A stretch of DNA of 64,000 bases from Buchnera aphidicola (Eriosoma lanigerum) (GTDB lineage Bacteria > Pseudomonadota > Gammaproteobacteria > Enterobacterales > Enterobacteriaceae). The notes under the pieces are model-generated. The model worked only from the letters and a program-made list of their open reading frames with translations. It had not been told where the DNA came from and did not search any database. Both the position numbers and the translations under genes were made by a program. The DNA is taken from positions 562,869 through 626,868 of the forward strand of contig NZ_OZ060395.1 in the NCBI RefSeq assembly GCF_964059125.1, written 5' to 3'. Of the stretch, positions 54,536-56,968 are shown one piece after another (position 1 is the stretch's first letter; each line of letters opens with the position of its first letter).

Positions 54536-56383
54536 TTATTTATATATACTACGTATAGCTCCTTGATCTGCACTAGTGGCATGAAAAGCATATGCTTTTA
54601 ATGCATTAGAAATCAATCTTGGACGATTAATATTAGGAGTATATGCTAATTCATTTCTCGATTTTTCTATATTTTTACGTGATAACAATTCTTGATTAGT
54701 AATATTTAAATGAATAGTTCTATCAGGAATATTAATAATAATTTCATCTCCGTCTTTTACTAATGCAATAACACCTTGATTAGCAGCTTCAGGAGAAATA
54801 TGTCCTATAGATAAACCTGATGTTCCTCCCGAAAATCTTCCATCTGTAATTAACGCACAAGATTGATCTAATCCCATAGCTTTCAAGTAAGTAGTAGGAT
54901 ATAGCATTTCTTGCATACCTGGACCACCCTTAGGTCCTTCATATCTAATTACAACAACATCCCCAGATGTAATTTTTTTATTTAAAATAGCATGAACAGC
55001 TGTTTCTTGACTTTCGTATACTTTAGCTTTTCCTTTAAAATTATAATTTTTTTTATGTACTCCAGCTGTCTTTACAATACAACCATGTTTAGCAATATTT
55101 CCATATAAAACAGCTAAACCTCCTTCTTTACTATATGCAAACTGTAAAGAACGTATACATCCAAATTCACGATCAGTATCAAGACTATCCCATCTAAAAG
55201 ATTGCGAAAAAGGAATAATTGTACGTATTCCTAAAGGTCCTGCTTTAAACATTTTTATTATTTTTTGATCTTTAGTAGTTATAATATTATATTTGTTTAA
55301 TGTCTCTTTTAAAGTTAAAGATAAAATATTTTTAACTCTATTATTTAATAAATTAGCCTCATTTAATTCTCCTAATATTCTCATTACACCACCAGCACGA
55401 TGCATATCTTCCATGTGATATTTAGAAGTACTTGGCGCAATTTTACATATATGAGGTATTACCTTAGATAAACTATTAATATCAGACATATTGAAATTAA
55501 TATTTCCTTCTTTTGCAGCTGCTAATAAATGCAATACTGTATTTGTAGATCCACCCATTGCTATATCTAATTTCATAGCATTATAAAAAGCTTGTCTGCA
55601 AGCAATATTTCTAGGAAGTACATCATAATTATTGTTTTCATAATAAGATTTAGTAATTTTAACAATAATTTTTCCAGACTTTATAAATAATTTTTTACGA
55701 TCACTATGTGTAGCTAATAATGTACCATTTCCTGGTAATGCTAAACCTAATGCTTCAGTTAAGCAATTCATAGAATTAGCAGTAAATAAACCTGAGCAAG
55801 ATCCACATGTAGGACAAGCAGAATTTTCTATTTCTTTAGATTCTGAATGAGAGATATTAGGATTAGAACCTTGTGCAATTGCATCAATTAAATCAACTTT
55901 AATAATTTTATTTGTTTGATTTAATATTCTTCCTGCTTCCATAGGTCCACCTGAAACGAAAACAGAAGGAATATTGAGACGCAAAGCAGCCATTAACATT
56001 CCTGGAGTAATTTTATCACAATTAGAAATACAAACCATAGCATCTACACAATGTGCATTAATCATATATTCTATAGAATCTGCAATAAGTTCTCGAGATG
56101 GTAAAGAATATAACATTCCTTCATGACCCATAGCTATTCCATCATCTATAGCAATTGTATTAAATTCTTTAGATACTCCTCCTGATTCTATTATAGAACG
56201 TGCAACTATTAAACCTAATTCACGAAGATGAATATGGCCAGGTACAAATTCTGTAAAAGAATTAACTACTGCAATAATAGGTTTTTTAAAATCTAAATCT
56301 GTCATTCCTGTTGCTTTCCACAAAGCTCGAGCTCCTGACATATTTTTTCCGTGAGTTGTTGTAGTAGATCTATATTTTGGCAT
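54536..56383 (-). CDS. ilvD: Dihydroxy-acid dehydratase
   Basis: Fe-S enzyme dehydrating dihydroxy acids in isoleucine and valine synthesis. I place the start at ATG 56383 ([22 protein letters not shown]), aligned with E. coli; the frame is open to 56437, but that part falls inside the palindrome. 615 residues (616). Cluster ligands in [11 protein letters not shown] and [30 protein letters not shown] and DGRFSGG are conserved. The Shine-Dalgarno AAAGGT (56390-56395) touches the base of the 49-bp palindrome arm, so translation may depend on this structure. Confidence 0.98.
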
Positions 56384-56393
56384 AAATAATACC

Positions 56394-56493
56394 TTTTTAA
56401 GTTTATTGTAGTTTAAATTACAATTAAGGTTTAGCATATCTAGTTAGATATGCTAAACCTTAATTGTAATTTAAACTACAATAAACTTAAAAA
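56394..56493. repeat. 100-bp palindrome: perfect 49-bp arms with a 2-nt centre
   Basis: Bases 56394-56442 and 56445-56493 are exact reverse complements, separated only by GT. It lies between the 3' end of tRNA-Trp (56504) and the ilvD start (56383), both on the minus strand. On either strand the 3' side of the stem ends in AAAAA, not T's, so it is not an intrinsic terminator. Its proximal base overlaps the ilvD ribosome-binding site. Confidence 0.97.
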
Positions 56494-56503
56494 TAAAATC
56501 AAT

Positions 56504-56580
56504 TGGCAAAGGAGGAGGGAATCGAACCCCCAACCCCCGGTTTTGGAGACCGATGCTCTACCTAATTGAGCTACACCTTT
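56504..56580 (-). tRNA. trpT: tRNA-Trp (CCA)
   Basis: Anticodon loop CTCCAAA (CCA), T-arm GGGGG/CCCTC with TTCGATT loop, discriminator G (Trp identity) and encoded CCA. Acceptor AAAGGTG faces CTCCTTT, leaving a T6-T67 mismatch. The body is similar to E. coli trpT. It lies upstream of ilvD in the same direction with only the palindrome between. Confidence 0.95.
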
Positions 56581-56968
56581 AGAATATAAATCAAATATAA
56601 TAATTTCATTTAAAAAAAATTAGAAAATAAATACAAATTTATAATTTATTATATTAACTACCAATATAACATAAAAAAATAATTATTAATATAATATAAA
56701 AACATAAAATTATACATATATTAAAACTAATTTTTTATATATATAAATATAATCTAATGAATAATTTATTAAAAATAATAATATATAGTATAATAAATTA
56801 TTATTCATTATTCAATTAATTCACTGGTATTATCTTTTTTCTATTGATACTAACATGAGTAATACAACAATTTATTTCTATTTTATAAACAAATTATTAT
56901 TGCTTATATGAAAAAAGATACTAAAAATATTAATAATAATTATTCAATTTAAATATTTGAGGTTTCAC
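56581..56968. other. Divergent spacer tRNA-Trp/iscS
   Basis: About 390 bases with no gene. It must hold promoters for tRNA-Trp (minus) and iscS (plus). TTGATA at about 56845 is a -35 candidate for isc, without a good -10 at 16-18 bases. No IscR gene is present upstream of iscS, and I could not identify an IscR site. Confidence 0.4.

Follow-up and report, generated by a model that had tools for sequence, protein, structure and literature searches.

Large palindromes are a described feature of reduced insect-endosymbiont genomes. In three Blochmannia genomes, 20, 10, and 6 of them are reported, 62 to 136 bp in size and all but two at least partly intergenic, and the authors argued that such palindromes would decay without selection (PMC3017870, in extract). 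Perfect inverted repeats are also known from nematomorph mitochondria, where few are decayed, the two arms change in concert, and template switching is one possible mechanism (PMC6649704, in extract). On a smaller scale, quasipalindrome mutations in yeast and bacteria are described as those that "universally perfect the palindromic sequence," one arm serving as the template for the other (PMC6357072, in extract), and template switching has been put forward more generally as a process that both makes and keeps perfect hairpins (PMC8794818, in extract). As for Buchnera itself, the BCc genome is reported to rank first among 1,565 genomes in inverted-repeat frequency (PMC10434271, in extract), and terminators and conserved hairpins were reported in Buchnera spacers in an article in whose available text the words "ilvD" and "inverted" do not occur (PMC3164680).

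Here, we describe a perfect palindrome between the tRNA-Trp gene (trnW) and ilvD of a Buchnera-type genome of 637,734 bp in three contigs (G000). The window, that is, the whole stretch of 64,000 nucleotides that was analyzed, is part of its 626,868-bp chromosome, and the closest IlvD among the named loci compared is that of Buchnera aphidicola of Pemphigus obesinymphae (74%). The palindrome adds a case to a kind already described, together with comparative evidence on mechanism. It belongs with the Blochmannia palindromes as these were delimited (arms of at least 30 bp, gap of at most 20, at most 3 mismatches, intergenic, in an endosymbiont genome), and both sets are long, mostly intergenic, and found in reduced genomes of insect endosymbionts; however, the Blochmannia search tolerated as many as 3 mismatches, and its authors argued for selection, whereas here the mirrored change seen in two sister genomes suggests that copying is a further means of upkeep (PMC3017870, in extract). 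The nematomorph palindromes lie inside protein genes and have arms of up to 142 bp, whereas those of Buchnera lie between genes save for overlaps with gene ends (PMC6649704, in extract). The correction seen in Escherichia coli, which likewise makes a palindrome perfect, was measured on an 18-bp laboratory reporter, whereas for the arms of 25 to 76 bp in Buchnera it would be deduced from genome comparison (PMC6357072, in extract). Also, the BCc survey counted repeats of at least 6 bp, a measure sensitive to base composition, and its available passages do not deal with long perfect palindromes (PMC10434271). No mention of the trnW-ilvD palindrome was found in the titles and abstract openings of a literature search that lay mostly outside subscription journals. 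Our main reading, to which we give about two chances in three, is that this palindrome would be a by-product of replication that arose by template switching and is tolerated without SbcCD, rather than a dedicated regulator.

Structure and position of the trnW-ilvD palindrome

Direct inspection and an inverted-repeat scan of the window give two arms of 49 nt that are 100% complementary around a 2-nt center, in the place where the first-pass annotation had put them (Table 1). The spacer between tRNA-Trp and ilvD is 120 nt long, 100 nt of which are palindrome, and both genes are on the minus strand. The annotation had also placed the base of the hairpin over the ilvD Shine-Dalgarno, which is right only in part: the last A's of the palindrome abut the GG of the likely motif (AAAAA/GG) and are shared with it, but the GG stays outside, and 10 nt lie between the palindrome and the ATG. 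Within the palindrome, a further in-frame ATG (56435-56437) makes the mechanically predicted ilvD open reading frame run on to 56437, with 18 additional residues; it is not taken as the ilvD start, and the matches to homologues stop at or near 56383. A small predicted hairpin (GGUAU/AUGCC, window 56379-56393) adjoins the palindrome and would pair the Shine-Dalgarno GG with the start-codon region.

Table 1. Features around the trnW-ilvD palindrome (window positions) and perfect palindromes with arms of at least 25 bp in the sampled genomes
Feature or genome	Position or length sampled	Strand	Remarks
ilvD	54536-56383	minus	start ATG 56383-56381; homologue matches stop at or near 56383
GG of likely ilvD Shine-Dalgarno	56392-56393	minus	just outside the palindrome; read from sequence
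ilvD-proximal arm	56394-56442		3' arm in the ilvD-sense transcript
Palindrome center, 2 nt	56443-56444
tRNA-proximal arm	56445-56493		5' arm in the ilvD-sense transcript
tRNA-Trp (cca)	56504-56580	minus	upstream neighbor; ARAGORN; Rfam RF00005 at 56507-56580
G001	200 kb		9 palindromes; arms 76, 67, 66, 65, 54, 50, 28, 27, 25
G000	264 kb		3 palindromes; arms 49, 36, 26
G032	200 kb		2 palindromes; arms 46, 31
G020	100 kb		2 palindromes; arms 42, 39
G205	100 kb		1 palindrome; arm 44

Arms of 49 bp are far beyond chance. In 30 simulated windows from each of the order-1, order-3, and order-5 Markov models and in 30 shuffles of 100-nt blocks, the longest arms were of 11 to 20 nt. The second-longest perfect palindrome of the window itself has arms of 18 nt (gap up to 30), in agreement with the earlier remark that nothing else in it comes near this length.

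When folded as RNA, the ilvD leader reaches -68.6 kcal/mol (z -16.35), and RNase III is encoded in all eight genomes searched, G000 included. Both points would suit a functional hairpin in a tRNA-Trp-ilvD-ilvC transcript, in which cleavage of the 49-bp duplex by RNase III separates the tRNA from the mRNA, or the stem shields or restrains the ilvD message. If transcribed, the hairpin may well be cut by RNase III, which would be a consequence and not a proof of purpose. Among 16 Rfam matches, only the tRNA passes its gathering score, those of miRNA and other families to the stem being far below theirs, and a known leader or cis-regulator was rejected on this basis.

A bidirectional terminator or the remnant of an insertion element would also leave an inverted repeat between genes, although both are very unlikely. 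As already proposed at first pass, the palindrome is not an intrinsic terminator, since no terminator-like site, with a G+C-rich stem and then a T-run, was found in 56300-56960; moreover, ilvD, directly downstream, would need read-through or a promoter of its own. In G000, a 221-nt query has no match besides itself and its mirror image, so that a repeated element (REP, MITE, or IS end) was discarded. A search of E. coli genomes gave no match. The observation that speaks for this explanation comes from another locus, the 39-bp-arm perfect palindrome between ptsH and ligA of G020 (L194:1236-1318, L222:11682-11764), with a core of GCACCC/GGGTGC followed by T's. This core looks terminator-like, as though the stem of a terminator had been extended outward, and some palindromes may derive from terminators.

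The same spacer in related genomes

The comparison of the trnW-ilvD spacer, suggested with the first-pass annotation, covers 35 genomes of Buchnera type in which tRNA-Trp is upstream of ilvD at a distance below 400 nt. This set leaves out G122, G224, and G294 (genomes of 800-900 kb with spacers above 790 nt), loci with no tRNA-Trp nearby, duplicate loci of one genome, and 79 loci taken from a collection of genome contigs. A long perfect palindrome is present in three genomes: G000 (arm 49, gap 2), G001 (arm 65, gap 0), which is of the same genus, and G032 (arm 46, gap 2), of a different genus. In the other 32, the longest perfect arm is of 17 nt with gaps up to 30 and of 14 nt with gaps up to 12, and G002, the third genome of the G000 genus in the comparison, has an arm of 13 nt. 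The arm alignment reveals no homology of the G032 palindrome with those of G000 and G001. Three occurrences at one spacer are, by our informal judgment, more than expected for pure chance, and this recurrence is the other point in favor of the functional hairpin.

However, in G000 and G001 the palindrome reaches up to the likely Shine-Dalgarno, whereas in G032 it stops well short of it. Because the palindrome is rare among relatives and its position relative to the Shine-Dalgarno is variable, a conserved ilvD switch is unlikely; the translational switch was set aside as the main reading on the count of 32 of 35 relatives with no long palindrome.

Long palindromes elsewhere in Buchnera-type genomes

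Of 19 genomes scanned, with 80-264 kb sampled from each, five contain perfect palindromes whose arms measure 25-76 bp (Table 1), counts in which the G001 and G032 stretches were picked to contain trnW-ilvD, so that one palindrome in each is nonrandom, and the G000 figure includes the window. Samples from the other 14 genomes have no arm of at least 25 bp, and nine further 20-kb stretches of G000, G001, and G002 yielded no additional one. Long palindromes are thus confined to few of the lineages sampled.

The neighbors of these palindromes, named from a reading of their translations, are unrelated: gapA/fldA, ahpC, cysK/ligA, rnhA/gloB, glyQ/nfo, and others, with 14 palindromes placed between named neighbors. 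Some of the similar palindromes lie between convergent genes and one lies over the ligA start, locations that are not expected of an RNA hairpin serving trnW and ilvD. Therefore, the role in ilvD translation or tRNA-Trp processing offered at first pass finds no support in this distribution, since equally long palindromes occur between genes that have nothing to do with either. The trnW-ilvD palindrome does not look like an ilvD-specific device.

Besides trnW-ilvD, the only shared site is upstream of ligA, where 3 of 21 Buchnera-type loci carry a long palindrome (G001 66, G205 44, and G020 39), the other neighbor in G020 being ptsH and not cysK. For the remaining palindromes of G000 and G001, no partner of at least 25 was found at the reachable orthologous spacer of the other genome (G001 L154 being outside the coverage).

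All 17 palindromes with arms of at least 25 bp are centered outside genes, in stretches that are covered to 80.2% by open reading frames of at least 80 aa. Ten have no base in an open reading frame and four overlap one by 4-17 bases; larger overlaps are those of the window palindrome (44 of 100 bases, via the upstream ATG), a G032 palindrome (32 of 69), and the rnhA-gloB palindrome (28 of 113). The G032 case, with arms of 31 bp (L162:12572-12640), has of all 17 the center nearest to a gene, 3 nt beyond the end of an open reading frame of 207 aa, and one arm occupies the last 32 bases of that frame.

Perfection of the arms and probable mirrored change

Long palindromes with slightly imperfect arms are nearly lacking. 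A mismatch-tolerant scan (+1/-3, score of at least 22) of 964 kb from six genomes, window included, found no arm of at least 30 nt with any mismatch and a single 28-nt arm with one mismatch, a result that holds for slight imperfection, the scan being blind to strongly decayed palindromes (e.g., arms of 40 bp with 5 mismatches). If selection acted on an RNA hairpin alone, G-U pairs would be tolerated, and palindromes that decayed slowly after their birth should be found in slightly imperfect form. Therefore, either the arms are corrected or the palindromes are young and do not last long. For the functional hairpin, the same scan is adverse, as no long stem has a mismatch or a G-U pair. Taken with its rarity in relatives, the variable Shine-Dalgarno position, and the unrelated neighbors of similar palindromes, this leads us to regard a functional RNA hairpin as unlikely, despite its folding energy, the presence of RNase III, and the recurrence at one spacer.

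In a GyrB tree of 19 rows, G000 and G001 are sisters (support 100/100) and G002 adjoins them (99/97). The arms are perfect in both sisters, which agrees with the first-pass view that identity of the arms means recent origin or strong maintenance. When the trnW-ilvD arms of these two genomes are aligned from their outer ends, 27 of 38 columns are identical, with nine substitutions and two 1-nt gaps. None of 1543 genomic and none of 2000 shuffled controls scored as high in this anchored alignment, the anchoring having been chosen after the unanchored result, in which 58 of 2000 shuffles were as good; of nine arms from unrelated palindromes, the highest score was 12, versus 14 for the G000-G001 pair. 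As each genome has perfect arms, the differences between the two are present on both arms. On this evidence, the two palindromes are probably homologous, and the mirrored change between the sister genomes would be partly established. One ancestral palindrome with subsequent correction appears to be the best fit to the aligned arms. Alternatively, a shared single-copy sequence could have been duplicated into arms separately in the G000 and G001 lineages; a comparison of the arms of each palindrome with the orthologous spacers of the other genome gave no result, the sequences being too diverged.

The apparent homology of the G000 and G001 arms also bears on an artefact of assembly or library preparation, that is, a fold-back chimera. 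Such artefacts would likewise give perfect arms, the present case rests on assembled sequence, and long palindromes hampered assembly and Sanger sequencing in Blochmannia (PMC3017870, in extract). Nonetheless, fold-back of a sequence A-X should yield A-X-X'-A' and not the arrangement observed, A-X-X'-B, which continues into the next gene; moreover, palindromes at the same spacer in three genomes and the avoidance of coding sequence would not be expected from it. We consider an artefact extremely unlikely.

Repair and processing enzymes

Profile searches of 34 genomes, this one included, found no SbcD match in any of them, whereas E. coli, the positive control of each search, was matched. SbcC is over the cut-off in none, with five weak matches of 23-41 profile positions, and the expectation voiced at first pass that SbcCD would be missing is thus borne out. 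RecA and XseA are also over their family cut-offs in none of the 34, with one and three weak matches, respectively. A recombination-gene study reports RecA as missing from Buchnera (PMC1193525, in extract). Because SbcD is absent from all 34 genomes, yet 14 of the 19 sampled have no arm of at least 25 bp, its loss would be at most permissive.

ExoI (PF08411) is matched in 33 of the 34 genomes, in a single frame in 32, and has no match in G102. According to a study in E. coli that is cited in PMC6357072, this enzyme reportedly aborts template switching. Its loss as the driver of palindromes was rejected: it predicted a palindrome-rich G102, yet 200 kb of that genome contain no arm of at least 25 bp. 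In G001, the ExoI gene (sbcB) is in two pieces in different frames near an A run (L230:397-1814; G001:C1:554001-556500). Rescue by slippage at such runs occurs in Buchnera, and the disruption could be overcome in this way or be a sequencing error; nothing is built on it here.

Proposed origin

From the combination of perfect arms, intergenic placement, restriction to few lineages, and absence of SbcC, SbcD, RecA, and XseA matches, we infer a replication mechanism and selective neutrality. In the proposed sequence of events, the nascent strand would fold back at a small inverted repeat and copy one arm onto the other. Template switching, or quasipalindrome correction, would then lengthen the inverted repeat and rewrite one arm from the other, and with continual rewriting both arms would change in step. 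As SbcCD is missing, the hairpins would stay uncut and the palindrome would survive, and selection would mainly exclude palindromes from coding sequence. A more specific account, which we offer tentatively, is that the trnW-ilvD palindrome may be self-perfecting: it would have been born before the split of G000 and G001, its sequence would have changed in both lineages, and arm-on-arm copying, in cells lacking RecA, would have kept it symmetric, some Buchnera lineages being in palindrome bursts.

When long perfect hairpins show mirrored changes, this is normally taken to prove that an RNA structure is under selection. In the present case, the copying machinery itself is the probable source of such a signature, which calls for caution in claims of RNA structure in reduced genomes. 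Moreover, genomes with no detected SbcD that differ strongly in palindrome load provide a natural comparison. If the self-perfecting account is true, the lineages in palindrome bursts would be natural settings in which to test how palindromes are born, how their arms evolve in concert, and how gene ends change as a side effect, as at the rnhA tail and the ligA and gloB starts.

Palindromes at gene ends

The 54-bp-arm palindrome of G001 between rnhA and gloB (L150:19368-19480) contains the start of gloB, and the mirror image of that start makes up the final codons of rnhA (NSSSN and the stop). The RnhA tail of G001, IDNINNSSSN, is unlike the eight other RnhA tails found in sequence, although not in length, since it extends 10 residues past the conserved GY versus 9 in G000. 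Of those eight tails, seven end 1-9 residues past the conserved region and that of G012 runs on for 32. Both RnhA tails and GloB starts vary among the other genomes. Because both gene ends vary and the tail length is ordinary, either arm may have been the donor at this locus.

Finally, in G001 the ligA start codon lies inside a palindrome. A perfect inverted repeat with 22-bp arms is also present within the ligA coding sequence of this genome (L181:1797-1851), and part of the same region also has a match on the opposite strand of G000 and G112 at the corresponding place.
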